Shown: one piece after another, positions 2,016 to 29,925 of the stretch
Layout: each line of letters begins with the position of its first letter
Position numbering within the stretch: position 1 is the first letter of the stretch
Source: Chloroflexota bacterium
GTDB lineage: Bacteria > Chloroflexota > Dehalococcoidia > Lucifugimonadales > UBA3495
DNA length: 42,825 bases
NCBI GenBank assembly: GCA_028875055.1
Contig: JAPPGG010000074.1
Span: forward strand, 1-42,825
Direction: 5' to 3'
Notes under the pieces: generated by a model
The model's input: the letters and a program-made list of their open reading frames with translations, nothing else
Told to the model about the DNA's origin: nothing
Database searches by the model: none
Program-made: the position numbers and the translations under genes

Positions 2016-3722
2016 ATGAGCGTCTCCGACCGGGAATTGCTGCACCATCTCAGCCTCATGCCCTTCACCGACACGGCGGAACTGGCGATGATCACCGGGG
2101 AGGCCCACGTCGCCATCCACCGGGGCCTGGCCGGCATGATGGCCGACGGCATCGTGGAGCGCGTCGGCCACGGCACCGCTCACCTGCCGACGAGCAGGCG
2201 ATACTACCTGACGAGGAAGGGCGTCGGCGAAGCCGCCGGAGTACTGGGCTTCGATACGCCCTCGGACTACGTGCGTGCCTACCCGGTGTCCCGGGAGTGG
2301 CTCGCCCTGCTGGTCCGCCGCATGGACGCGGTGGCCACGGTATACCGCCTGGCGGCGTCCCTTTCTCCCGGAACGGACGGGCGCTGTTCCCAGGTGGACT
2401 TTCACCGCCGGGGCCGGTTCGACGCGGTGATCACTCTCCACGACGGGCTCACCTTCGGGGTGGTGCGGCAGGGTCCGGCGCTACGGCGCCGCTCCCTCTA
2501 CGACCGGCTGCGGGCCATCGCGGAGTACGGGTACCGGCGCCGCCCCGGCACGGTCCTGGTGCTGGCCCCCAGCGTCTGGGAACAGCGGTTTGCGACCAGG
2601 TTCTGCGAGCGGCTGAACATCGACGACTGCTACGTGGCCGTGGAGTCCAGGGATTCCCTGGAGGACTGGAACAGCAACGCCTGGCGCTATGCCTCGTGGC
2701 TCTTCGGCAGCCTGCCCTATTCATTGGAGTTCATCCGCACCCGCGGCAGCCCGAACCGGGGACCCTTCACCGAGCCGCCGGAGCGCAAGCGGGCCTCGCT
2801 GCCCGACGCGCAGCGGATGGTGCAGGCCGCGCCCACCTTCGGCCTGACTTCATCGGAGAAGCGGACGCTGGACCTGATCACCGACCATCCGATGATACCC
2901 CGGGAGCATCTGGAACGCTGGCTGGGGGTTACCGAGGGCCGGGTCAGCCAGATGCTGCGCAATCTGGTGCGCACCTGGGGTCTTGTCGAAGGCCACGGCA
3001 AGCAGGGCGACATCCGCTACACCCTGACGGAGGAGGGCATCCGCTACGTCACCCACCGGGACCGGGCGCAGCTGCCGACCACCCGGGGAATATGGAGCGC
3101 GGAGCTTACCACCGACAAACACGGGAGGCGGCGGCATCTGGGCCACCGCATCGAGACCTGGGCCAGGCAGACCAGGCACGCCGACGGGGTGACCTGGTTC
3201 CTGTCGGAGCTGGCGGCGGAGGCGCGGGCGACGGCGGACTCCCAGCTGACCTGGTCCGTCCCCACGGCCAAGACCGACCGGGCCTTCAACTGGGGGGAGT
3301 CGGCCATCGCCCCGGACGCAGTGGGACACCTCATCGCCGACGGACTGCACATCCCCTTCTACCTGGAGCACGAACTGCGCGCCCGCCATCCCAAGGGAGT
3401 GCTGGCCCGGCTGCGGCCCTACACCGACTACTACCACTCCAACGCTCCCGAGACGGACATGACCCCCTTTCCCGTGACCCTGTTCGTGGTGGCCAACGAG
3501 GAGGTGGAGGAGACCTACGCGAGGACGGCTTCCAGGATGAACCTGATGACGCTGCCCATCCTGGTATCCTGCGCCGGCACCCTGACGAGGAACGGGCTGC
3601 TGGGCCGGTCCTGGCGTCCCTTGTGGGCGTCCCGACCCAGGCGGCTGGCGCTGTCGGGACTGAGGGCCTACCGGTGGGACTCGCTGCGGCACCGGATGCG
3701 TCCGGTAGAGGGGGAGACGTGA
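2016..3722 (+). CDS. replication-relaxation-like protein, copy 1
   Basis: The 568-residue protein starts MSVSDRELLHHLSLMPF. Residues 1-75 look like a winged helix (TAELAMITGEAHVAIHRGLA, then a wing with SRRYYLTRKG). A second MarR-like winged helix lies near 285-350 (EKRTLDLITDHPMIPREHLE, then LGVTEGRVSQMLRNLVRTWG, then RYTLTEEGIRYV). The C-terminal half has a nuclease-like or 'replication-relaxation' character similar to Pfam Replic_Relax proteins of Actinobacteria and Chloroflexota mobile DNA. I give that family name from pattern memory. No strong Shine-Dalgarno precedes the ATG, but the same start is conserved in copy 2 on the other strand. From about codon 166 on, the two copies encode identical protein; before that they differ at roughly 30 positions. 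Confidence 0.65.
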   Translation: MSVSDRELLHHLSLMPFTDTAELAMITGEAHVAIHRGLAGMMADGIVERVGHGTAHLPTSRRYYLTRKGVGEAAGVLGFDTPSDYVRAYPVSREWLALLVRRMDAVATVYRLAASLSPGTDGRCSQVDFHRRGRFDAVITLHDGLTFGVVRQGPALRRRSLYDRLRAIAEYGYRRRPGTVLVLAPSVWEQRFATRFCERLNIDDCYVAVESRDSLEDWNSNAWRYASWLFGSLPYSLEFIRTRGSPNRGPFTEPPERKRASLPDAQRMVQAAPTFGLTSSEKRTLDLITDHPMIPREHLERWLGVTEGRVSQMLRNLVRTWGLVEGHGKQGDIRYTLTEEGIRYVTHRDRAQLPTTRGIWSAELTTDKHGRRRHLGHRIETWARQTRHADGVTWFLSELAAEARATADSQLTWSVPTAKTDRAFNWGESAIAPDAVGHLIADGLHIPFYLEHELRARHPKGVLARLRPYTDYYHSNAPETDMTPFPVTLFVVANEEVEETYARTASRMNLMTLPILVSCAGTLTRNGLLGRSWRPLWASRPRRLALSGLRAYRWDSLRHRMRPVEGET

Positions 3723-8348: not shown

Positions 8349-10088
8349 TAATGGGGAAATGGGGCCGCGTCAGTTGCCCCATCACGTCTCCCCCTCTACC
8401 GGACGCATCCGGTGCCGCAGCGAGTCCCACCGGTAGGCCCTCAGTCCCGACAGCGCCAGCCGCCTGGGTCGGGACGCCCACAAGGGACGCCAGGACCGGC
8501 CCAGCAGCCCGTTCCTCGTCAGGGTGCCGGCGCAGGATACCAGGATGGGCAGCGTCATCAGGTTCATCCTGGAAGCCGTCCTCGCGTAGGTCTCCTCCAC
8601 CTCCTCGTTGGCCACCACGAACAGGGTCACGGGAAAGGGGGTCATGTCCGTCTCGGGAGCGTTGGAGTGGTAGTAGTCGGTGTAGGGCCGCAGCCGGGCC
8701 AGCACTCCCTTGGGATGGCGGGCGCGCAGTTCGTGCTCCAGGTAGAAGGGGATGTGCAGTCCGTCGGCGATGAGGTGTCCCACTGCGTCCGGGGCGATGG
8801 CCGACTCCCCCCAGTTGAAGGCCCGGTCGGTCTTGGCCGTGGGGACGGACCAGGTCAGCTGGGAGTCCGCCGTCGCCCGCGCCTCCGCCGCCAGCTCCGA
8901 CAGGAACCAGGTCACCCCGTCGGCGTGCCTGGTCTGCCTGGCCCAGGTCTCGATGCGGTGGCCCAGATGCCGCCGCCTCCCGTGTTTGTCGGTGGTAAGC
9001 TCCGCGCTCCATATTCCCCGGGTGGTCGGCAGCTGCGCCCGGTCCCGGTGGGTGACGTAGCGGATGCCCTCCTCCGTCAGGGTGTAGCGGATGTCGCCCT
9101 GCTTGCCGTGGCCTTCGACAAGACCCCAGGTGCGCACCAGATTGCGCAGCATCTGGCTGACCCGGCCCTCGGTAACCCCCAGCCAGCGTTCCAGATGCTC
9201 CCGGGGTATCATCGGATGGTCGGTGATCAGGTCCAGCGTCCGCTTCTCCGATGAAGTCAGGCCGAAGGTGGGCGCGGCCTGCACCATCCGCTGCGCGTCG
9301 GGCAGCGAGGCCCGCTTGCGCTCCGGCGGCTCGGTGAAGGGTCCCCGGTTCGGGCTGCCGCGGGTGCGGATGAACTCCAATGAATAGGGCAGGCTGCCGA
9401 AGAGCCACGAGGCATAGCGCCAGGCGTTGCTGTTCCAGTCCTCCAGGGAATCCCTGGACTCCACGGCCACGTAGCAGTCGTCGATGTTCAGCCGCTCGCA
9501 GAACCTGGTCGCAAACCGCTGTTCCCAGACGCTGGGGGCCAGCACCAGGACCGTGCCGGGGCGGCGCCGGTACCCGTACTCCGCGATGGCCCGCAGCCGG
9601 TCGTGGAGGGAGCGGCGCCGTAGCGCCGGACCCTGGCGTACTACCCCGAAGCTGCGGCCATTGTGGGCGGTGATCACCGCGTCGAATCGGCCCCGGCGGT
9701 GAAAGTCCACCTGGGTACATTGCCCGTCCGTTCCGGGAGAAAGGGACGCCGCCAGACGATATACGGAGGCCACCGCGTCCATCCGGCGTATCAGCAGGGT
9801 GAGCCATTCTCTGGACACGGGGTAGGCCCGTACATAGTCCGAGGGGATGTTGAAGCCGAGTATATCGGCGGCCTCGCCGACTCCCTTCCTGGTCAGGTAG
9901 TACCGCCTGCTCGATGGCAGGTGGGCGGTACCGTGACTGACCCGCCCCACGATGCCGGCGGCCAGCAGCCCGGCCAGGCCCCGGTGGGTGGCAACGTGGG
10001 CCTCACCCAGGATCATCGCAAGTTCCGCCGTGTCAGCCAGGGGCATACGGCTCAGGTGGTGCAGCAGTTTCTGGTCGGAGACGCTCAT
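8349..10088 (-). repeat. right arm of the ~1.74-kb inverted repeat
   Basis: This is the partner of 2016-3755. The arms enclose about 4.6 kb carrying the membrane-protein genes, the decayed antitoxin and the HTH/coil/TM gene. Unlike the left arm, no MITE lies upstream of the start. Confidence 0.85.
8382..10088 (-). CDS. replication-relaxation-like protein, copy 2
   Basis: The protein has the same length (568 residues) and the same start, MSVSDQKLLHHLSRMPLADT, as copy 1. The frame is open further upstream to 10124, but copy 1 and the alignment support the ATG at 10086-10088. Differences from copy 1 are confined to about the first 165 residues and include many conservative exchanges in and around the first winged helix (AMILGEAHVATHRGLAGLLA). 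The remaining ~400 residues, with the second winged helix and the C-terminal domain, are identical. The likely role is DNA binding in replication or relaxation of a mobile element. That is inference from family resemblance. Confidence 0.65.
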   Translation of the reverse strand: MSVSDQKLLHHLSRMPLADTAELAMILGEAHVATHRGLAGLLAAGIVGRVSHGTAHLPSSRRYYLTRKGVGEAADILGFNIPSDYVRAYPVSREWLTLLIRRMDAVASVYRLAASLSPGTDGQCTQVDFHRRGRFDAVITAHNGRSFGVVRQGPALRRRSLHDRLRAIAEYGYRRRPGTVLVLAPSVWEQRFATRFCERLNIDDCYVAVESRDSLEDWNSNAWRYASWLFGSLPYSLEFIRTRGSPNRGPFTEPPERKRASLPDAQRMVQAAPTFGLTSSEKRTLDLITDHPMIPREHLERWLGVTEGRVSQMLRNLVRTWGLVEGHGKQGDIRYTLTEEGIRYVTHRDRAQLPTTRGIWSAELTTDKHGRRRHLGHRIETWARQTRHADGVTWFLSELAAEARATADSQLTWSVPTAKTDRAFNWGESAIAPDAVGHLIADGLHIPFYLEHELRARHPKGVLARLRPYTDYYHSNAPETDMTPFPVTLFVVANEEVEETYARTASRMNLMTLPILVSCAGTLTRNGLLGRSWRPLWASRPRRLALSGLRAYRWDSLRHRMRPVEGET

Positions 10089-10272
10089 GTATCGAGCGTA
10101 GCAGACGGGGAGCTTGGCGGTCATTAGGCAAGTGTCAGTGCCTCCGGTGTATGGAACATGGGCATGAGCAGCAGGTTTGAGTTAAGGGAATGGGGCCGCA
10201 AGTGCGAATGTCTCGGGCCAACCCAGGCGGAGAACGGTGGCCTGCGGATTCGGCGCCGCTTTCGCGGGTTGC

Positions 10273-10500
10273 TCATTCCTCAGCCTGATGGTCCGATGGC
10301 GCGGCCCAGGTTGACTGCCGCCTCAGGTGAGCGCGGGCGATGATCCGGGCCAGGATGCGCAGCCCCGTCTGCTTCTGCGCTCGCTCTTGCTCGGTATGGT
10401 TCGGGGATGTTCCCCCTGGGGTCTTCCGGCTGGCGTTGCCGGACTTCCGGTTGCTCCCGGGGGAACGCCCCCGTCTGTTTCTTCTGGTGTCCTTTCGCAT
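10273..10500 (-). CDS. small basic protein, unknown
   Basis: This 75-residue frame has a convincing ribosome site (GAGAGG five bases before ATG). The leader and first codons (MRKDTR) are repeated upstream of a second small frame at 11088 (MREETR). The N-terminal half is Arg/Gly/Pro-rich; the C-terminal half is a likely amphipathic helix, EQERAQKQTGLRILARIIAR followed by AHLRRQ. No family is recognised. It may be a short regulatory or nucleic-acid-binding protein, but a chance frame in GC-rich DNA is not excluded. Confidence 0.4.
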   Translation of the reverse strand: MRKDTRRNRRGRSPGSNRKSGNASRKTPGGTSPNHTEQERAQKQTGLRILARIIARAHLRRQSTWAAPSDHQAEE

Positions 10501-10640
10501 ATCCTCTCGTTGGTGGCGTGTGATAGGGCCTCCGCGTCTGGCTGGGTTTGCTGATTCAGGATCATCTCGTTCACCTTGTATTGGTTTGGGTTGGCGGCGT
10601 CTTTGCCGCTGCTGCCAGAGAGTGTGAGCAACGGGATGGC
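10485..10640 (-). repeat. leader repeat R1
   Basis: This is the first of three diverged direct copies, R1 to R3 (R2 at 11085-11230, R3 at 11585-11690). R1 and R2 share, on the minus strand, an AGGTGAAYGAGATG-like block and ACGAGAGGATATGCG with its ribosome site and start codon. R1 lies about 85 bases left of hairpin repeat A. Confidence 0.65.
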
Positions 10641-10723
10641 GGCGGGAAACTACCTGTGAGCGTTACCAACCTTGATAACCCTCACGGGTCCCCTGGCATC
10701 CGGCGCCTCCCCTGCTGTCGTGG

Positions 10724-10880
10724 GGGTGTACAGGAGATTGAGTTTTGCAGCGAACCGCCGGGTGGGTCGTTTCAAAGCTGAAACAGGGGAAATCGACCCC
10801 TTACTGGACGTGACCGGTGAACACTTCGAGTTAAGGGCCGGTTCCGGCCTGGAAGCGAAAAACCCGATTGACGTGGGGGT
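10724..10880 (+). repeat. hairpin repeat A
   Basis: The head is GTGTACAGGAGATTGAG; at 10770-10783 it carries the imperfect palindrome TTTCAAAGCTGAAA, then GGTGAACACTTCG and a GTTCCGGCC tail. The same order of blocks recurs in repeats B to D. Confidence 0.65.
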
Positions 10881-11084
10881 GCATGACGGGGCGAAAAACG
10901 GCGTTGACCTGGAAAAAGCCCCCAAAATGGCCGGGGATGTGCCGGTGCGTTACGTGCTGGACGGAACTGGTCCTGCCCCGGCGTTCAGCCCCACATGCAG
11001 CCTCTCCTACTCCAGGGCGGTGTGCTGCGTGGATACTGACGTGGACGCAGACTCCCGGCTCGATGTGTTGTCTCGTCTCTTCAC

Positions 11085-11230
11085 GCATATCCTCTCGTCG
11101 GTGGTGTGCGATCGTGCCTCCGTGTCAAGCTGGGTCATCGGCTTCCGGGTCATCTCATTCACCTCGCATGGTTTCGGGTTGATTTGGGCCGCCGGCATCT
11201 TCGGCAGCGCCACTGGCGAGTGTGGACCAT
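11085..11230 (-). repeat. leader repeat R2
   Basis: R2 matches R1 across about 140 bases with many substitutions. On the minus strand it leads into a frame starting MREETRQHIEPG at 11088 that then shares nothing with the R1 product. The repeat is therefore conserved up to the start codon and diverges after it. Confidence 0.6.
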
Positions 11231-11320
11231 CCGGGCAGCGGAAAAGACCCCCCATAGGGGGCCGCACGGATGCAGCCCCTTTCAGGCTCTCGATTTTTCA
11301 CCTCCCGCTTTGCGTATTGG

Positions 11321-11475
11321 GGGGTGTACACGAATTTGGTTCTTGTAATGAGACCGGAAAACTGCTGGTTTCAAAGCTGAAACAGGCGCAAATCGGGCGA
11401 AAATGTGCCCCGAACCTGTTAACACTTGGTTGAAAGGGCACAGTCCAGCCCCGGGACGCAAAACCGGGTTAGGGG
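11321..11475 (+). repeat. hairpin repeat B
   Basis: The head is GGGGTGTACACGAATTTGG. TTTCAAAGCTGAAA at 11369-11382 is identical to that in copy A, and GTTAACACTT follows at 11418-11427. Confidence 0.65.
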
Positions 11476-11584
11476 GTCTGCAAGAAATCAGGACACCCCG
11501 GCGCGAAATCGTGCATTTCCCCCTCCAGGGGTCAACAAGACGCGGCCCTTGGCGGGACGGGCGGCCCGTGGGTGGGGAACCGGG

Positions 11585-11690
11585 TCGGAGTATCGGTCGC
11601 AGCAGCACGTCGTTCACCTCTCCAGGGCTGTGACGATGGGTCTGTTCGCCAACGCCGCCAGCCAGTGTGAACCACTCGGACGCCCGGCAT
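11585..11690 (-). repeat. leader repeat R3 (shorter, more diverged)
   Basis: On the minus strand it shares the TTCACACTGGC...GGCG block and GGTGAACGA with R1 and R2. The ribosome-site and start-codon end is not recognisable. Confidence 0.5.
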
Positions 11691-11794
11691 AACCTCCCGC
11701 GAGGGCACGCATTCCTGCGGGGGCGCCTGGGGACCCGCATTGGTGCGGGGGCGCGCAGGGCCTTATGCCGGCGGCCCCTCCCGTGATGTCATTG

Positions 11795-11945
11795 GGGTGT
11801 ACAGGAGATGGACGCCGGTTGTAGACATGCAATTCGGGCGGTTTCGTAGCTGAAATCGGGGGAAACAGGCCGCCTGCGGGGGATTGCCGGTTAACACTTT
11901 TCGTAAGTCCCCGTTCCAACCCGGAGTTGCAGAAGCCCTAGCTGA
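11795..11945 (+). repeat. hairpin repeat C
   Basis: The head is GGGGTGTACAGGAGATGGA. A small stem TTGTA/TGCAA (one G-T pair, loop GACA) follows, then TTTCGTAGCTGAAA at 11842-11855 and GTTAACACTT at 11890-11899. The end overlaps another stem, GTTGCATTTCTGCAAC (11948-11963). Confidence 0.65.
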
Positions 11946-11986
11946 AAGTTGCATTTCTGCAACCCGTCGCCAAGGAGGAGCTAGGG

Positions 11987-12428
11987 ATGGATGCAATGCA
12001 GACGGGCATCGACCGGAGCGCAGCGTGGAGGACCTGCGCCACCTGCGGCTGATGGCCCTATTGGACGAGTTGGTGCGCGACAAGGGGCCGCGCCGGGCGG
12101 CGGCGGACCTGGACGTGGACCACCGGACCCTCACGGCCAGCCCGGAGAGCGGCAGGCTGTCCCGGCGGATGCGGACGGCCCTGAACCAGGCCCTGCTGGC
12201 CGGGGCCGGGGTTTGGAGTGGCTGCGCGACGAGGAGCGGCTCATGCCGGTGGAGCTGGCGCTCCTGGAGGAACACGGGCTGACCCTGCCCCCGCAGACCA
12301 ACTGGCGCCGCAAGGCCATGGAGGACGCCCGCAGGCGGCAGGACAGGCTCCGGTGGCCGCTGCGGACGCTACGGATGAAGCTCCGGCGCAGGCAGTGTCT
12401 GCGAAAGGGCCGGTTCCATTCCTGTTAA
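11987..12428 (+). pseudogene. frameshifted HTH protein
   Basis: An AAGGAGGAG ribosome site precedes ATG at 11987 (MDAMQTGIDR). After about ten codons the sense shifts frame to SVEDLRHLRLMALLDELVRD, KGPRRAAADLDVDHRTLTAS and SRRMRTALNQALLAGAG, a clear helix-turn-helix of a type common beside Chloroflexota mobile DNA. Near 12215 it shifts again to EWLRDEERLMPVELALLEEH and an Arg-rich end. Two frame breaks make it a probable relic unless the assembly is at fault. The HTH would have bound DNA as a repressor or element-specific regulator; partners are unknown. Confidence 0.6.
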
Positions 12429-12658
12429 CAATTTGCCGGTGGGGTGCTGCAAGGGACTATGCAACGGTCCTGGAGTGTGCGACGATTGAATGGTTATCTG
12501 GCTTTTCCAGGGTTTCCCGCCATAGAAACCTGGGGGCGCCCCCTCGAGCCCGGGTCTGACCGTAGGGATGATTCGCTCTCCCGAAGGTCCCCAAGAGGGA
12601 ACGCTGCCGCTGCGGATTTGACGTAAGCTCTCTGTAAGCAGCGCGGACCGGACCAGGC
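12429..12658. other. intergenic, no gene seen
   Basis: A fragment resembling the GTTAACA block of the hairpin repeats lies at the left end (CTGTTAACAATTTG, near 12421). Nothing else is recognisable. Confidence 0.4.
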
Positions 12659-12718
12659 GGAGTGTTTAAGTCCTCCGTCCCCGGTCCAGTCCGGCGGTTG
12701 GAGTGTTTAAGTCCTCCG
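12659..12718. repeat. 19-bp direct repeat pair
   Basis: GGAGTGTTTAAGTCCTCCG occurs at 12659-12677 and again, perfectly, at 12700-12718. Each copy has GGAG/CTCC ends that could pair as a short stem. Two copies 41 bases apart suggest a protein-binding site or the remains of a larger duplication. Confidence 0.7.
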
Positions 12719-13604
12719 GCTGCCGGGCACCCGTTCAGCGGTCCGGGGCTGATCCCTCCGGTCCGATGGACACCCGCCCGGTGGCATGAGCTAGTCACTC
12801 CTGCGACTGGACGGAGGGGACGGAGCGTTTAGCGGCGCTCCGTTCTCACCCTGGCTGAGGCATTCGTGAGTCCTGCTCGCGGCGCCCCAGCCGGAAACAA
12901 TACCCAGGAAACGCGCGGCGCGTTTCACCAGGCAACCCGAACCCAGGCGGTATCCCGACCCAACGGCGTTCATCATCATCAAGGAGGTGGCGTACCGAAA
13001 CAGCACGGCGTCCCGGATTCCCTATCCTTCGGTTCTACATAGCGGAGCGACGGCACGCTGCGCACTCTCTTACCCCTGCGGTTGGAGCGTGGACAACGCC
13101 TTGGCCGCTTCCCCACGCCTGCGGCGTAGCTGCTGAACACCGGCAGCGGCACCGCAGGATCAACATGCTCCGGTTCCCCGAAATGCCGGACCGGACGCTA
13201 ACCATTGCCACGCGATTGACACCGGGCTGGACGCTGACGGCGTAGCCCGTTGCCGCGCTGCGTTCCTCACCCTTTCCCTCACGTAGCGGTTCCCAGGACT
13301 TACACCCTGGCCGAACTGCGTCTTTCGCCAATCCCCATTCGGCGTTTCCGTTGCGCCGCCCGACCCTGGCCCCATTGCGTCCTGGGCCAACTCCCGAAGC
13401 CCAGTTCTCCGTTGAGCCGTCCTGGCGAGTGAACCGGGCGGAGTCTGCTACGCCAATGGCGATTCTGACCCGGATGTCATTGACCTGGAGGGCGGTTCAA
13501 GGGCGGAGGACAAGGAACCCGGGACCGGCGGCGCCCGGTCGTCCCGTCTCGCTTCCGGTTGCGAAATCACCCCTCCAGGACCCCGCCAGGGCCGGGTTCG
13601 ATGT
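12719..13604. other. gene-poor segment with diverged repeats
   Basis: No frame here convinces as a gene. From 13208 to 13392 the sequence resembles 16160-16375. On the minus strand both give WRKxQFxxGVxxGNxxxRE, which could be a relic coding sequence or coincidence of a repeat. Around 13425-13445 a fragment TGGCGAGTGAACCGGGC recalls leader repeat R2. Confidence 0.4.
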
Positions 13605-13760
13605 TATACCCGTGTACATGAATTGACGCCAGTTGTAGAAATACAAGTCGAGGCCATTTTGAACCTGAAACGGGGCTGGATTGTGGCCCGAATGCCGAAT
13701 TTGCGAGCAATCCCGTGTAAGGTCCGGTTCCGGCCCACTTGTATTTTTGCAAGCGGGTTG
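13605..13760 (+). repeat. hairpin repeat D
   Basis: The head is CCCGTGTACATGAATTGACG. The perfect stem TTGTA/TACAA with a GAAA loop lies at 13633-13646, then TTTTGAACCTGAAACGGGG. The tail is TCCGGTTCCGGCC, as in copy A. Confidence 0.65.
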
Positions 13761-13979
13761 ACAGGGCGATGGATCAGGCACGGGGACGGCGCCGCCACAC
13801 CGCGAGGGTCTCCTTCCACCAACGCCGGCTGGGTAACGGCAGGTACCAGGGCGCTCTGACCTTGAGACGGTTGCTCAAGTCGATGATGGCCCCGGCGGGC
13901 TGGCCTGGTACCCTAAAAGCAGGGACTTGCGAGTCATCCCTTTTGGGACAGCGGATTTGGACGGGCCGCCGGGGTGTCA
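13761..13979. other. between hairpin repeats, no gene seen
   Basis: No supported coding frame lies between copies D and E. Confidence 0.4.
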
Positions 13980-14075
13980 TACCCGTGTACAGGAGATGGA
14001 GGTTGGTGGACAGGTGTCCAATGTTGTCCGGTTGAACCTGAAATCGAGGGAAACCACCCCCTTGTATCTTGGTTA
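13980..14075 (+). repeat. hairpin repeat E, next to the IS110 element
   Basis: The head is CCCGTGTACAGGAGATGGA. The stem TGGACA/TGTCCA with a GG loop lies at 14007-14020. The block ACCTGAAATCGAGGG at 14036-14050 is identical to 8260-8274. The downstream part seen in copies A to D is lost near the left side of the IS110 element. Confidence 0.65.
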
Positions 14076-14145
14076 TGTGGGAATAATCTTTCCCATTGGG
14101 TGCGGCAGACCGAACCCCCTAAGGTCTTGGAAGGCCGTCCGATAG

Positions 14146-15223
<1,078 letters not shown>

Positions 15224-15274
15224 TATTGGACGGTTGCAGCTAGCACCTGGGTTCCAGAGCAGGTTCCAGCCCCG

Positions 15275-15374
15275 TTGGACAGAGCCACGTTCAGAATCGG
15301 ACAGTTGTCCAATGGCTGGAGTCGGCATGATTGGACAGCGCTACGTTGGAAATTGGACAGTTGTCCAGCGGCAG
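15275..15374 (+). repeat. two 56-bp repeats with palindrome TGGACAGTTGTCCA
   Basis: Two direct units begin TTGGACAG at 15275 and 15331. Each continues with an (A/C)GC(C/T)ACGTT block and then GGACAGTTGTCC. The stem TGGACA/TGTCCA is the same as that in hairpin repeat E. The array resembles iterons or an operator cluster. Confidence 0.65.
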
Positions 15375-16625
15375 GGCAAGGCCCGGGCGGTGGAGACTCT
15401 GGGGCCAGTCCGCGCACCTTGACCCGGTTCGAGGATGGCCGATGGCTGACCCCCACCCTGGTCGGGGCGTTGGAAAAGGCGCCTATTTGGAGGGGGCGGG
15501 TTGGCGGCGCCTCTCAAAGAGCCCGGACGATCTGATCGTGACCTGAACCGACTCGTGCTGCGGTGCTTCCTCACCTTCGGATTCTGGCGGAATTAGGGCG
15601 CCGGGGACGTGAGCGGAACGGCCATGCTGATGCTGCGACTCCAGAGCGAGCACTTTGTCTTGGATGGCCTGATTGCTGCGCTTTGCCCCTTCCCCGAGAC
15701 GGCGGGCTGGGCGATACTGAATGTGTTGTCCGGCTTTTGCCAGTGTTTTCAGCCCAGAAAACTGGAGGGTCCATCCCCGACCCGGTTTGTTCGCTAGGGA
15801 TCGAGCCCTGCTCTCCCGGCGGCAGACCATCAGGGGATAAGCGCCCGCCCGCTGCGTGATGCGGAACAGGGGTCGAGCATTGCTCCTCCGGCGACCGGTT
15901 CGATGCGGGACATCACACCAGCCTGGCGCCGGTCGTCAGCATCGCCAACATCGTCCAGGAGGCGAAGACTGGAACAAACGCGGTAGACCAGGACCTGAAC
16001 CCTTCGCTCCAACTCACCGAGCGCACACGAAGTTGCGCTCACCCCTCATGCTGCGGCTGGACCGGGCTTCGCCGTCCGGCCGCTCCCTCACGTCTGCAAC
16101 GTAGCTGCCGTACCAGCAGTAATCAGGCCGCAGGCCCCACCCGCTCCGGTTCGCCAACGGCGGCGACAGGCTGGACGCTCTCCCTGGCGACGCGGTTTCC
16201 ACCGGCGCGCTGGCTGACTGCGTGGCTGCTGGCACTACTGCGCCCCTTCCACTCTCTCGCAAAACAGTTCCCGGACATCACGCCAAGGACGAACTGCGCC
16301 TTTCGCCAGCCCCAAATCCGTCGTTCCGAGTTGCTCCAACCTGCCTTGGGCGTAGTGCGTCCGGCACCGGGCGGTTGGATTGAGCGGCTGAGCGTTACCC
16401 TGGGCTGCCTGCGCCTCTCGCCAACCCTCATTCCAGCCTTCGCCATTGCTGCCCTCGACCCAGGGCGTGGTGCGTCATGCCCCACCTCGCCGACTCAGTA
16501 TATCCGTTGCCGAGCCGGGCCGGACCGTGGGCGTAATGCGTCCAGCACAGCAGAGAGGCACAGGCTGATGCCGATAGCCGGTGGAATGGGGGCGATCCTG
16601 GAGGGTCAGAAGGTGCCCTTGGCCA
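15375..16625. other. gene-poor segment with diverged repeats
   Basis: I see no supported gene. 16160-16375 resembles 13208-13392, and 16380-16490 is a further, shorter copy sharing CTGCGCCTCTCGCCAA. The minus-strand reading is coding-like (GWRKAQFVLGVMSGNCFARE) but has no proper start or family. Confidence 0.4.
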
Positions 16626-16790
16626 ATGCCCAGCGCCATTTTCATCACCAGCGGCAACCACATCAACCACGGCCAGAACGTCAGCGACAACGGCGACAAC
16701 CACAACCATAACCACATCGAGGAGGTGAAACACAGCAACAACGAACATCCTGAGTCCCCGGCGGCCACCAAACGGTGGATCAATGGGTGA
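16626..16790 (+). CDS. possible small Asn/His-rich protein
   Basis: The frame gives 54 residues: MPSAIFITSGNHINHGQNVS, DNGDNHNHNHIEEVKHSNNE and a Pro/Ala end with KRWING. An AAGGTG lies upstream at a plausible distance. The Asn/His/Asp-rich composition is unusual for GC-rich DNA and may bind metal or fold as a short beta repeat. The following regulator also begins with an Asn/Thr-rich tail. I give it modest weight because no family is recognised. Confidence 0.4.
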   Translation: MPSAIFITSGNHINHGQNVSDNGDNHNHNHIEEVKHSNNEHPESPAATKRWING

Positions 16791-17062
16791 ACCGGCAATA
16801 AGTCCCAAGTCCCGCCGCGCCACGCTTCGGGCGGCGGAGACCAGGGTGGCTGCGTGAGCCGCCACTGACAATCGAATAGGCGCCAACGAGCGGGGTCGTC
16901 TCTCCCAAGTGCGGGAAGGCGGCCCCGCTCTTCGTGTTTCCCAATCTGGCGACCACGACCAAAGCGGCTGAATGGACCGCACCCAACGACCTGCATCTTG
17001 AACCGGAGAGCGGGGTCGGTCCATTCGGACCGCCTCGCTTTCCGCCTTTCGGAGGAAGCGAC

Positions 17063-18064
17063 ATGACCACCGTTATCGGCAACAGCAACAGCACCGAGAC
17101 CACCAATAACCTTGCAGTCACTCTCGACGGCCAGCGCGACACCAACGCCCTACAGGACACGGAGGCCCAGCCCCATTCGGAGAGCAAGTTTGAGAACCAG
17201 GGCAAGACCGAGAGCGAGCTCAGGGCCGCCGCCCGGCGCAAGGGCCTCACCCTCAAGGAACTGGCCGCTTTGATGGCCGTCAACTACAGCCACCTGTGCT
17301 CGGTGGCCAACGGGCGCCTGCCCTGGACTCCCGACCTGCGGGAGAAGGTAATGGCCGTCCTGGGCGAGGTCCCCGGCCAGGGCGTGGTCTACCGCCCGGG
17401 CGGCCGCGTCGGTGACTCAGGGAGCAACTACATCCGGGAGCAGGCCAGAGAGGTGGGCCTGAGCATGGGGGAACTGGCGGACCGGGTGGGCATCTCACGC
17501 AGCTACCTGTCCCAGGCGGCACGGGGAGACCGCCACTTCGGTCCCCAGGTCCAGGCGCGGGTGGAGGCGGAGTTGCAGGCTCCAGTCAAAGTCGAGGCTG
17601 CCCAGCGTCCCACCGTTGACCCCAGGGCCCTGTGGGACCGGATGGATGCGCTGGGGCTCAGCCAGAATGAGGTGGCGCGACGAGTCGGCGTCAGCAACGG
17701 CTACCTCTCCCAGATCATGAACGGCAAGCGCACCCCGTCGGGGAACGTACTGCGGCGGCTGTACGAGGTCCTGTTCCGGCCGTCCGGCGAGGAACTGGTG
17801 GTCCCCGCCGAGTTGAAGGTGCTGGCCTGGAAAAAGGGCGGGCGCAACGGCGTGGTGGTGCGCGGCGCCGGTGGTCCGGGGGCTGGCGGAAACAACCCCG
17901 GCGGCGGCACTATCCGCATCGGCGGGCACGTTCCCTGGGGGGCCGAGGTGGAGTTCGCCTACACCAGCGGCTACGACAGCCGGGGCCGGGTGACGGTAAC
18001 CCACTTTGTGGACGAAAGGGGCTACGGCGTGATGTTGCAGCGGCGGGAGCCGGACCAGGTTTAG
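17063..18064 (+). CDS. regulator with three XRE-type HTH domains
   Basis: The ATG at 17063 follows CGGAGGAAGCGAC; the frame is open upstream but without a ribosome site. The 333-residue protein has an Asn/Thr-rich N-terminus of about 45 residues and then three helix-turn-helix units. HTH1 is GLTLKELAALMAVNYSHLCS (about 60-79), HTH2 is GLSMGELADRVGISRSYLSQ (about 133-152), and HTH3 is GLSQNEVARRVGVSNGYLSQ (about 195-214). The C-terminal ~90 residues include a Gly-rich linker (GAGGPGAGGNNPGGGTIRIG) and a small beta domain. Three Cro/C1-type domains in one chain imply binding to a spaced or repeated operator. The repeat arrays at 10-15.4 kb are obvious candidates, but that link is inference. Confidence 0.8.
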   Translation: MTTVIGNSNSTETTNNLAVTLDGQRDTNALQDTEAQPHSESKFENQGKTESELRAAARRKGLTLKELAALMAVNYSHLCSVANGRLPWTPDLREKVMAVLGEVPGQGVVYRPGGRVGDSGSNYIREQAREVGLSMGELADRVGISRSYLSQAARGDRHFGPQVQARVEAELQAPVKVEAAQRPTVDPRALWDRMDALGLSQNEVARRVGVSNGYLSQIMNGKRTPSGNVLRRLYEVLFRPSGEELVVPAELKVLAWKKGGRNGVVVRGAGGPGAGGNNPGGGTIRIGGHVPWGAEVEFAYTSGYDSRGRVTVTHFVDERGYGVMLQRREPDQV

Positions 18065-18086
18065 TGCGGGGACTAAGGGGATAACC

Positions 18087-18120
18087 CGCACCCTATCGGA
18101 CAACGGGCGGGTAGGGTGCG
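18087..18120 (+). terminator. hairpin after the triple-HTH gene
   Basis: CGCACCCTA (18087-18095) pairs with TAGGGTGCG (18112-18120). Only a weak T stretch follows, so termination strength is uncertain. Confidence 0.45.
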
Positions 18121-18285
18121 CGTTTGGTACGGTCCGTTCGGGCAGCCATCGTCACGACTCACGTCGTCCTGGAATCGCCCGGTGGTGTACAATGTTCTTG
18201 GGTAGAACGCCTTCAGGGAGAGCCAAAGAGCGGCGACTCCCAGCCCTGCATCGTTCCGGGGCCGCCGCCAGCCGCCAGGTGCGAA

Positions 18286-19030
18286 ATGATTACGCCCAAC
18301 ACCACCGCCAAGACACCCCATGACCCGGGCCGGTTCCGGCTGCCGGACCCGCCCCAGCGCGAGCCCGACGAGATGACCCAGTACGACCGCCTGTTCAAGA
18401 CCGGCAACTCCCGCTACCTGGCCCTGCACCTGGGCAGACCGGAGACGACCCTGGTGGAGGCCGACCGCTGGATCGTGGCCGACCCCAGCTTCAACAGGGC
18501 CCGGGCCCGGCGGCCCGACCTGCTGGTGGCCTTTGGCGTGGACCCGGCCTTGTATGAAGCCAGCAATGGGTACATCATATCGGAGCAGCAGAAGCCACCG
18601 GACTTCGTGCTGGAGGTGGCGTCGGAGAGCACGGCGGAGATAGACGTGGGAGAGAAGCGGCGGGACTACGCCGCCCTGGGAATACCGGAATACTGGCGGT
18701 TCGACGAATCGGGGCGGTATCACGGAACTCGCTTGGCCGGGGAGCGGTGGTGGACGGGGAGTATGTTGCCCTGGACATCGAGGAACTGCCCGGGGCAGCT
18801 TGCAGGGGTACTGCGCGGCGTTGAACCTGTACCTGCGCTGGCAGAGCGGCCAGTTGGTATTCCACGACCCGGCCACGGGGCTACCCATCGCCACCCTGGA
18901 GGATGAGCGCGCCCGGGCCGACAGCGCCGAGACGGCACGCGATGCTGATCGCGCCCGCGATGATGCCGAGCAGACCCACGCCGATACTGCCGAAGCCCGG
19001 GTCCGGGAGTTGGAAGAGCGGCTTCGCTAG
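18286..19030 (+). pseudogene. Uma2-family nuclease-fold gene with two frameshifts
   Basis: The start MITPNTTAKT follows AGGTG. The PD-(D/E)XK core of Uma2/DUF820 is clear: RRPDLLVAFGVD (D78), DFVLEVASES (E110), then EKRRDYAALGIPEYWRFDES. Near 18745 the sense moves to a second frame (VVDGEYVALDIEELPG) and near 18795 to a third (LQGYCAALNLYLRWQSGQLV, then the coiled-coil tail ending ELEERLR). Both shifts are the same direction and lie at G-rich runs (GGGGAGCGG, CCCGGGGCAG). Decay and sequencing error are both possible. The tail matches the partial gene at the left edge of the window, so the two are paralogs. The cellular role of Uma2 proteins is not established. Confidence 0.8.
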
Positions 19031-23336: not shown

Positions 23337-24794
23337 TACTACAACGACGACTTCAGGGTGGAGTATCCGGCCTGATGTGGCGGCGGGCGGCGCGGCGTCT
23401 GGCGTGAGAGTGGCTTGCTCGCTGGTTACGCAGCTGAGTCTCCTTCAGCCAGAGCAGCAACTCCTGGGGCCCGAACCGCTCTCGGGGCAGCATCTCACGC
23501 ACCACCCGGTACACTTGCGGTCGGGTGATGGGGGGCATCTTTTTTCCCCCAATCCTGCTGCAACCCTAGCAGAAAGGCTCCGGCCAGCAGGCACATGGCT
23601 ATGTGGTGATGCCAGCCAGCCCAACTCCTGGTCTCGTACTCATCCAGTCCCAAGTCGCCCTTGTCCGTCTGGAACTCCGTTTCAATGTGCCATCTGGACC
23701 CGCCCACATAGGCCAGGGTCTCCAGGGTAGTGTCTTCAGGAGCGTTGGACAGGTAATAGCGGGGTTCGCTGTCGTCCAGGTTCCGGCGCCACACCGCCCA
23801 CACCTCCTCGCCAGGCTTGTGCTTCCTGGTGGCCCGCACCCGCTGGGCGCTGAACTGGTAGACCCGGGGCCCCTGGCTTCCCTGGGCCACCGTGATCTCC
23901 CGCCAAGCCTCTTGGGGCAATTCGTCCCGGCCTTGCTCCATAGTCCGGCGTTGTCCCTCCTGTAGCTTGGGTTTGCGGGGACGTCCCGTCCCTGAATACT
24001 CGGGACGGGTCCAGGCTGGCTCCAGAGGCCAATAGGTAGTGTTGCCGGGAACGTCCAGCACGTAGCGCATCCCCAGGGCAGCCAGGTCGTCCCGCAAGGA
24101 CGGAGACATCCCGAAGGCATCGTCTCCGGCTACCCACTGGGCCCGCAGATGGCCCAACCCCACGGCCCGTGTCAACAACTCCAGCGCCAACTCCGTCTTG
24201 GACCGGTAGCCCCGCCGCTCTGTCGGCACCCCGGCCGCCGCACACCGAGCTTCGTCCGAAGTCCAACTTTCCGGCAGGTACAACCCCTTGTCCACCAGAG
24301 CCCGGCCCAGGGGACTGACGTAGGCCAGAAACATCCCCGCCTGACAGTTGGCCACTTTGCCCAGGCGCCCGCAGTACTGCCGCGCCACGCCCGCCGACTT
24401 CCGTCCCTGTTTGGGAAAGTCGCTGCCGTCTAATACCCAAACCCCCTCCGGGTGCCCCAGCCGAAGGGCCAGGTATTCCTGCAGCCGACCTACTACCGCA
24501 TCGTCGTCCCAGCGGGCCTCGGTGAGAAACCGCTGCATCGCACGAGCCGAAATTCCCACCGATTCCGACAGGTTCTCGGCGTTGCGCCGTTCTTCTCCCT
24601 GCACCAGCAGCGCCTGTAGATAATTCCGGCTGTGCTCCCGCCACTGCTTGCGCCCGAAAGCCGGCGCGCAAAAGGAATGAAACTCGCCAAAGGACTCGTA
24701 GACCCGCTGAAACTCCAACGCCTCCATCACACTCCACCACCCCGATTGCCTGCTTCACCCCGTCATATTACCAGCATAACTCGTCGTTGTAGTA
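23337..24794 (-). mobile_element. IS701-family element with CTAG target duplication
   Basis: Terminal inverted repeats TACTACAACGACGA (23337-23350) and TCGTCGTTGTAGTA (24781-24794) are flanked by CTAG on both sides (23333-23336 and 24795-24798). A 4-bp duplication of the YTAR type is characteristic of the IS701 family. The element is 1458 bp long. Confidence 0.88.
23353..24727 (-). CDS. IS701-family transposase with a late frame break
   Basis: The start MEALEFQRVYESFGEFHSFC is preceded by GGAG. DDE catalytic residues are visible: VWVLDGSDFPKQG, VAGDDAFGMSP and WHIETEFQTDKGDLGLDE. They match the DDE superfamily used by IS701 elements. The first frame stops at 23495 after QDWGKKDAPHHPTASVPGGA. 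The natural continuation (MPPITRPQVYRVVREMLPRE, then RNQRASHSHARRRAARRH) is in the next frame. The switch is at a run of six A on the mRNA (23540-23545), so a single-base indel, sequencing error or slippage is likely. The catalytic core is unaffected; only the last ~60 residues depend on the shift. Confidence 0.85.
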
Positions 24795-28208: not shown

Positions 28209-28356
28209 TGTGAATTTCCGACAACATTGACCCACTAAAGGCCAATATTTCCCGCAACATTGACCCACTCCGAGCAGGAAATTTCCTGCAACATTGACCC
28301 ACTCTTTGGGAGCCAATCGGCGACCATTGCTGCACTTCAGGAATGGAGGTGCAGGG

Positions 28357-29925
28357 ATGGCGTACCGGGAGGTTGCCAGAGTGGAAATACAGGAGATTAT
28401 CCGGCGGTGGAAGCTGGGCGAGGGACACCGCCGAATCGCATCGGGGACCGGTGCATCCCGGAACACAGTCCGCAAGTACCTCAGCGCTGCGGCAGCGGCG
28501 GGAATTTCCCGCTACGGGCCGCCCCCGACTCCAGACCAGGTCAGCAGGCTGGCAGCCCTGGGCCAGGCGGGACTGCTGAAGCCCAAAGTGACCAACGAGG
28601 AATTGTTGGACCCCTGGGCTGACCAGATCCACCGGTGGCTCACCGGCGACCGGCTGCAGATGACCCGGATCCACGAGTTGCTGGTGGCTCGCGGCTGTTC
28701 CGTGAGCTACAAGTCGGTGTGGGGCTTTATTCACCGGCGCCAGTGGCGACGGCCTCGCCGTGCCACCATCCGCATGGAAGAGACGCCTCCAGGCGAAGTC
28801 GCCGAGATGGACTTCGGCCGCCTGGGCCTGATCCCTGATCCTCAGAGCGGCCGTCGGCGGGTGGTATACGGGCTGATCCTGGTGCTGGGGTACTCCCGGC
28901 ACAGCTTCCTCTGGCCCACCAGCAACCAGAAGCTGGAGGACGTCATCGCTGGCCTGGAGTCGGCCTGGGCCTTCTTCGGCGGCATCCCCAAGTACCTGGT
29001 CATCGACAACTGCCCTCCCGCGGTGGCCACGGCGGATCCCCTACATCCCGTCTTCACCCGGGGCTTTCTGGAATACTCCCAGCATAGGGGCTTCATCGTC
29101 GATGCGGCCCGGGCCCGCCATCCCAAGGACAAACCCAAGGTGGAGCGCAATGTCCAGTACGCCCGCGAGCGCTTCTTCAAGGGGGGCGAGTTCAAAGACC
29201 TGGCCGATGTCAGAACTCAGGCGCACCGCTGGTGTCTGCAAGTGGCGGGACAGCGGATCCACGGCACCACCTTCAGGCAGCCCCTGGTGGTCTTCCAGGA
29301 CGAGGAGCGCCAGGCCCTGTTCCCCTGGGACGGCGAGCCCTACGAGATCGCCGACTGGCGCCACGCCAAGGTCCACCAGGACCATCATATCCAGTGCCAG
29401 CAGGCGCTCTATTCAGTACCGTCCAGCCTCTGCCCTCCTGGCCAGAAGGTGGAGGTCCGGGTGGACAGCAAGCTGGTGCGCATCTACCACCGGGGCCAGC
29501 TGGTCAAGACCCACGTCCGCCAGCCTAAGGGCGGAAGGTCCACCGACAATGCCGACTATCCCGCTGAGCTTTCCGCCTACACCACCAGGGCCCCCGACGG
29601 CATCAAGGCCAGCGCAAAGGAACTTGGTCCCTCCGTAGCCGAGTTCGCCGACCGGCTCTTCGACGGTCCCCTGCCGTGGGCCAAAGTCCGGCAGGGACAC
29701 AAGCTGCTGCGCCTGGGGGAACGCTACACCGCGAAGCGGCTGGACGCCGCCTGCGGCCGGGCTCTGGAGGTGGACCTCATCGACGTCACGCGCCTGGAAC
29801 GCATCCTGGTCCAGGCCCTGGAGGAGGAGACCACCCCGGAGTTGCCAGCGTCGCTACCCCAGGGCCGCTTCGCCAGGCCCGGATCCGTCTTTTCCCATAC
29901 CAAGCAACACCGCCGTACGGCTTAA
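28357..29925 (+). CDS. istA: IS21 transposase IstA
   Basis: The ATG at 28357 follows GGAGGTGCAGGG. The 522-residue protein has an N-terminal helix-turn-helix (HRRIASGTGASRNTVRKYLS) and a second DNA-binding region (MTRIHELLVARGCSVSYKSV). The DDE integrase core shows AEMDFGRLGLI (first Asp), YLVIDNCPPAV (second Asp) and HPKDKPKVERNVQYARERFF (Glu). The C-terminal beta domain resembles Mu-transposase C-terminal folds. IstA cuts and joins the element ends after IstB selects the target. The gene is full length and undamaged, and its product is 12 bases upstream of istB. Confidence 0.93.
   Translation: MAYREVARVEIQEIIRRWKLGEGHRRIASGTGASRNTVRKYLSAAAAAGISRYGPPPTPDQVSRLAALGQAGLLKPKVTNEELLDPWADQIHRWLTGDRLQMTRIHELLVARGCSVSYKSVWGFIHRRQWRRPRRATIRMEETPPGEVAEMDFGRLGLIPDPQSGRRRVVYGLILVLGYSRHSFLWPTSNQKLEDVIAGLESAWAFFGGIPKYLVIDNCPPAVATADPLHPVFTRGFLEYSQHRGFIVDAARARHPKDKPKVERNVQYARERFFKGGEFKDLADVRTQAHRWCLQVAGQRIHGTTFRQPLVVFQDEERQALFPWDGEPYEIADWRHAKVHQDHHIQCQQALYSVPSSLCPPGQKVEVRVDSKLVRIYHRGQLVKTHVRQPKGGRSTDNADYPAELSAYTTRAPDGIKASAKELGPSVAEFADRLFDGPLPWAKVRQGHKLLRLGERYTAKRLDAACGRALEVDLIDVTRLERILVQALEEETTPELPASLPQGRFARPGSVFSHTKQHRRTA

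Follow-up and report, generated by a model that had tools for sequence, protein, structure and literature searches.

XRE/Cro-C1 regulators such as SinR, C.BclI, P22 c2, the 434 repressor and ImmR have one helix-turn-helix (HTH) per chain and usually work as dimers, and XRE units belong mostly to regulators. Among large bacterial RNAs, GOLLD and ROOL have ties to phages and mobile DNA, and a type III toxin-antitoxin operon consists of RNA repeats, a terminator and a protein gene. The locus described here lies in a window (the whole stretch of DNA analysed, 42,825 nt of contig JAPPGG010000074.1 from a Chloroflexota bacterium, assembly GCA_028875055.1) and pairs a gene for a predicted three-HTH protein, gene B, with hairpin-forming non-coding DNA and the remnant of a second gene, gene A, upstream of it. 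Gene B and its predicted units are as follows.

17063-18064, plus strand: gene B, 333 amino acids (Pfam, PHROG, AlphaFold, unit profile)
17210-17365, plus strand: HTH unit 1, residues 50-101 (unit profile, AlphaFold)
17423-17578, plus strand: HTH unit 2, residues 121-172, the type doubled in four-unit relatives (unit profile)
17624-17776, plus strand: HTH unit 3, residues 188-238 (AlphaFold, unit profile, VIA-align, entropy)

A preliminary description of this DNA had proposed three Cro/C1-type HTH units in one chain, an uncommon architecture with a Gly-rich linker and a small beta end, and had named structure prediction and a search for orthologues as checks. Profiles above the curated cut-offs place gene B among XRE/Cro-C1 proteins: Pfam HTH_3 (78.9 bits against a cut-off of 23, E 2.9e-22) matched in two stretches, HTH_31 (67.3 bits against 27) in three and PHROG 7241 likewise in three, and a profile built from the family's own units, whose source sequences include the window gene B itself, located the units at the residues given above. 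AlphaFold with 18 family sequences returned the four-helix HTH pattern in all three units with identical internal spacing, helices 2, 3 and 4 starting at residues 64/75/90 in unit 1, 135/146/161 in unit 2 and 201/212/227 in unit 3; a single sequence also gave three helical units with the same spacing. The pLDDT per ten-residue block was mostly 79-88, 62-82 and 61-90 for units 1, 2 and 3, and the overall pTM was low (0.26-0.27), probably because the linkers and ends are flexible. The top rows of a Foldseek search of the model against the PDB were mostly XRE-type proteins, with no row at E 0.001 or better, and the VIA-align rows shown against solved structures cover unit 3 only (residues ∼180-240), with Z up to 10.0. 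No S24 peptidase domain appeared among the 25 Pfam families shown of 31, and no RNase family among the families shown, the matches being to HTH-type families. Taken together, these predictions uphold a 333-aa protein that would run from a disordered, Asn/Thr-rich N-terminus through three Cro/C1-type HTH units and a Gly-rich linker to a small beta C-terminus. The proposed three-unit chain was thereby borne out by profiles and fold prediction; the linker can be read directly from the sequence, the beta end consists of strands predicted with low confidence, and the uncommon architecture proved to be a trait of a whole family, in which the number of units itself varies between three and four.

The search for orthologues did yield relatives: of 59 related genomes, counting the own one, 11 contain them, and gene B is therefore not a chance ORF; a class sample gave 4 of 393 genomes, again with the own one. 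The own genome holds nine gene-B places, seven full-length (C18, C35, C1, C30, C49, C9 and C15) and two partial. Four HTH units were found with the unit profile in 7 of 49 loci, some of them partial, and three in most of the complete ones. Pairwise dN/dS was 0.22-0.35 over eight pairs, the lowest value belonging to the window copy and the G003 copy, the one closest to it. Recognition-helix contact positions, which we take by analogy from the 434 repressor, varied more than the other positions in the units (entropy 1.33 versus 0.78 bits, one-sided p 0.002, in a test that ignores phylogeny), and residue 212, the first of the recognition helix of unit 3, had the highest entropy among the positions printed. 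Alignment A1 was made without L043, whose start is out of frame, and without L040, which has four units, and alignment A4 without L063; L041 and L148 are truncated gene copies. One copy comparison dropped alignments that were >98% identical and >2500 nt long, another dropped near-identical rows. At the truncated copy, L041 (own genome) and L044 (G001) share 98.7% identity over 6.5 kb, far above other flanks. A named genome collection (MAGs) contributed 41 gene-B loci, with titles that are nearly all Chloroflexi/Chloroflexota, Dehalococcoidia or SAR202 and one Acidimicrobiia; none was found in the plasmid collection or in the viral contigs searched, and open PMC text yielded no publication on the gene-B family or the region between genes A and B. 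The bin names of these MAGs, together with PMC5649159, suggest that they come from sponges.

The DNA immediately upstream of gene B contains two terminator-like features.

17005-17060, plus strand: gene B leader, with a GC-rich hairpin at ∼17005-17043 and an alternative pairing at ∼17036-17060 that partly overlaps it
16888-16939, plus strand: second terminator-like hairpin with a T-containing tail (sequence and alignment)

A GGAGG ribosome site precedes the ATG at 17063; an in-frame GTG lies at 16934, and since the DNA upstream of the ATG does not hold that frame between aligned copies, 17063 is the likely start. The alternative leader pairing, as read by eye, includes the ribosome site. Over the 58 nt ending 14 nt before the start, leader hairpin energy averaged -37.1 kcal/mol in 29 listed gene-B copies of 49 (near-identical pairs L067/L068 and L071/L073 included; L036, L038, L061, L072, L079, L080 and L084 among those left out) versus -16.3 kcal/mol at 85 further GGAGG-ATG sites in these loci, none of which matched the median of gene B. 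The hairpin arms vary between copies and retain their pairing, and the 3′ part of the leader has five matches across the own genome, every one of them where a gene B starts, against none for a reversed control. The leader hairpin has no long T run, and a consensus scan for terminator-like sites showed no excess (4 versus 5.6 in shuffles), its sites including part of the second hairpin. In L038, the stretch covering the region of the second hairpin gave a fold z of -7.1. A fuzzy count of a hairpin motif, M1, was rejected because it matched all 29 upstream regions but also 14 of the 26 downstream controls; limiting the search to two substitutions left 19 of 29 versus 0 of 26.

Gene B sits in a family of conjugative elements with a recurring layout. 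Homology between copies ends near the 3′ end of gene B and extends upstream. Gene A encodes ∼280-300 aa with an HTH-like N-terminus and no Pfam family above cut-off; it lies mostly 1.2-1.6 kb upstream of gene B, the space between them being conserved non-coding DNA, and further gene-A copies occur in the own genome with no gene B beside them. The C15 copy has the gene set of such an element (type IV secretion ATPase, coupling protein, pilins and TrbL), in the order serine recombinase, Replic_Relax, TraD/TrwB, VirB4, pilin, an unknown protein of 562 aa, pilin and TrbL, with gene A, the structured region and B running divergently. C35 has Replic_Relax, TraD, VirB4, TrbL and a piece of a recombinase, and other copies carry some of these genes. 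The own genome has 16 occurrences of Replic_Relax, and at six of its nine gene-B places (including C9, where the match falls below the family cut-off) it lies 7-15 kb from gene B, on the gene-A side and the opposite strand. In G013, at both G553 places, at one of G452 and at C4 of the own genome, B is replaced behind gene A by a small gene, a primase and Rad52; in L088 and L090, on two chromosomes, the small gene sits between A and B. The places in G013, G553 and G452 have gene A and the structured region without B, and B is therefore not essential. The Rad52-like protein of these elements has an Asn/Gly/His-rich N-terminus (L101:3123-3971, L102:2942-3814 and L146:12831-13694, the Pfam match being tested in L146 only). 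An empty-site search for C49 found the downstream flank in G003 (79% and 85%) and the upstream flank in the own genome only.

Upstream of gene A, aligned copies carry a GTGTAC box, and copy-specific palindromes of 14-20 nt occur in L035, L037, L061, L081, L083 and L084, of the types TTGCA..TGCAA, TGGACAGTTGTCCA and TTCCC..GGGAA. These are candidate operators, fitting A as well as B, and comparison of palindromes with recognition helices across copies assigned no site to B. The control of the mobile region by B that had been suggested earlier is thus plausible, since B lies inside conjugative elements, but the palindromes do not tie it to B. B may also read a spaced repeat as a monomer, as had been proposed, but again no palindrome was assignable to it.

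The window copy is degraded, and the following features precede gene B.

8382-10124, minus strand: Replic_Relax protein, closest to the block among the conjugation-related genes
10250-11986, no strand assigned: divergent promoter region of the first remnant, with GTGTACAG boxes and the palindromes GTTTCAAAGCTGAAAC and GTTGCATTTCTGCAAC
11987-12430, plus strand: gene A remnant (tblastn matches at 11929-12210 and 12201-12389 in different frames)
12595-12863, plus strand: structured element of subtype 1, from another element remnant (match to model R1, built in part from the window, at 12689-12848, 158.6 bits)
13560-15400, no strand assigned: divergent region of the same type, second remnant, with GGACAGTTGTCC at 15299-15310 and 15355-15366, cut by IS110
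14063-15222, plus strand: IS110-family insertion, transposase at 14212-15207, absent from the G003 copy
15712-15960, plus strand: structured element of subtype 2, adjoining gene B (alignment A7, energy z, weak covariation)
16282-16545, plus strand: TGGGCGnAnTGCGYC hairpin-like repeats spaced by ∼58-65 nt (motif identified by eye)

Gene A lacks ∼120 codons here and is in two frames. Replic_Relax is the only conjugation gene of the set found in the window, so the element there is a remnant. What lies between the two RNA subtypes is similar to the promoter region found in a different type of element (L037, L051), so that the window, judged by its sequence, appears to combine two decayed remnants that have been joined, gene B being intact. 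Replic_Relax matches at 2016-3722 (+) and 8382-10124 (-), in opposite orientation, both score 45.9 bits, as does one in C61, and the pair is possibly an inverted duplication. A Uma2-family putative nuclease (Pfam) lies directly downstream of gene B at 18124-18906 (+); in most loci copy-to-copy homology stops before this gene. An rve/Mu-type transposase is present at 28294-29925 (+), and an ORF at 23495-24730 (-) is presumably another DDE transposase.

For subtype 1 of the structured region, an alignment of 14 copies folds with 70 pairs, 15 of them compensatory, versus 5.2 in shuffles (0 of 500 reached 15) and 2-5 for slid structures. Its consensus energy was -75.0 (z -5.8) on the coding strand and -46.2 (z -4.0) on the other, and one hairpin comes and goes as a whole, about half of the copies having it and the others lacking it. 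Subtype 2 gave z -5.4 on the plus strand versus -2.4 on the other; its covariation is weak (3 pairs versus 1.4 in shuffles, 54 of 500) because its sequence hardly varies. Coding controls from two stretches of gene B gave fold z of -0.8 to 0.8. Strand was judged by energy z-scores in place of G-U versus A-C counts, which were rejected as proof because coding controls were also high (80:7 and 110:7); segment A5 hardly differs between strands (z -5.0 and -4.6), A6 does (-3.8 and -2.8). The subtype-1 covariance model has matches in 9 of the 59 related genomes and in 13 of 250 genomes from the order; among its 32 loci with 1.5 kb flanks (29 places, three loci being secondary matches), 27 contain gene A and 21 gene B. 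Rfam gave no match at gathering score in window positions 10000-18200 (two fell below it) and none in 12 loci. A coding origin of the upstream block was rejected, as mismatches between the window and G003 show no codon phase there, unlike those in the gene (84/34/36). Gaps between these two copies are mostly of 3 nt, at the block ends, with 1 and 2 in one bin; many gaps in the G026 copy are not multiples of three, and GC content by codon position gives no clear sign of a gene in the block. Block identity was 0.93-0.97 in five of six bins versus 0.85 for the gene, the remaining bin being 0.84. Some of the gaps in an upstream mini-ORF (NHNHNHIEEVK...) are multiples of three, but the analysis did not establish it as a gene. 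The repeat arrays noticed earlier beside gene B are real, although mostly hairpin-forming non-coding DNA and not simple repeats, and the stretch between A and B, which folds into tandem hairpins, better on the coding strand, has the look of a structured RNA.

On balance, and with modest confidence, gene B is best explained as a sequence-specific DNA-binding regulator of Chloroflexota integrative/conjugative elements, its specificity diverged between copies, that is made by read-through behind a structured RNA; DNA binding, the targets, attenuation and the action of the A-B fold as RNA are here what we infer. Three, sometimes four, tandem HTH units would allow a single chain, or a dimer, to bind an extended composite operator that probably lies where the transfer genes and gene A diverge. 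Since recognition helices differ among copies in one genome, each element may mainly answer its own regulator. B would be transcribed downstream of the structured RNA, itself behind gene A, with the GC hairpin ahead of B possibly serving as a terminator or attenuator, so that B would be made by read-through. The present role of the window B is uncertain because the element around it is degraded. A bolder proposal, which we hold tentatively, is that the region between A and B represents a new class of large structured RNA, with tandem hairpins gained and lost as units, carried by conjugative elements and working with an evolvable three- or four-unit XRE HTH array for element identity or immunity.

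The fold could instead work as single-stranded DNA on the transferred strand, as a transfer origin or a single-strand origin or promoter, with B acting on it or being expressed from it on entry into the recipient. Its location inside a conjugative element, in several copies beside a CHC2 primase and Rad52 module, would suit this, and its strand preference suits one DNA strand as well as RNA; yet the fold is on the coding strand directly after gene A, the measured B copies have the hairpin and ribosome-site design typical of RNA leaders and no nick site was identified, and we regard this account as unlikely. Rather improbable is a B that serves as an accessory maintenance or replication-type protein, partition-like or array-binding, and not as a transcription regulator: it does replace the small gene-primase-Rad52 module in some copies and hairpin-like repeat arrays adjoin it, but no ParA-like partner was found among the gene-B neighbours scanned, and the general association of XRE units with regulation speaks for the latter. 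For the window copy, the broken gene A, the inserted IS110 and the joining of two remnants might mean that B has been left over from decayed elements or domesticated and has no role tied to an element; against this, B is intact and its dN/dS with G003 is the lowest of the eight pairs, which leaves such a role-free B distinctly improbable.

Under the preferred reading of gene B as an element regulator, a protein whose unit number and recognition helices vary, with many copies per genome, offers a test bed both for tandem-HTH reading of DNA and for how mobile elements keep apart. The hairpin region is a candidate RNA class without Rfam match that would give conjugative elements a testable RNA component.

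Compared with known systems, gene B shares a sequence profile in its units with XRE/Cro-C1 regulators (SinR, C.BclI, P22 c2, 434 repressor, ImmR), and unit 3 resembles them in fold (Z ∼8-10 over 55-62 residues); those proteins differ in their single HTH per chain, whereas the gene-B family has three or four with a Gly-rich linker and a beta end. Unlike CI/LexA-like repressors with an S24 peptidase, gene B has no S24 domain among the 25 of 31 families shown. Type III toxin-antitoxin operons have the same order of RNA repeats, terminator and protein gene, but their ToxN-like endoRNase has no counterpart among the families shown for gene B, which matches HTH-type families. Integrative and conjugative elements with Replic_Relax, TraD, VirB4 and TrbL have the same transfer set in a recurring order with a serine recombinase nearby; the elements described here differ in a divergent arm of gene A, the structured region and B. 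Like the large ornate bacterial RNAs GOLLD, ROOL and OLE (PMC12286853), the A-B region is a long structured non-coding stretch; it differs from them in lacking an Rfam match and in being built of tandem hairpins set between two genes for HTH-type proteins.
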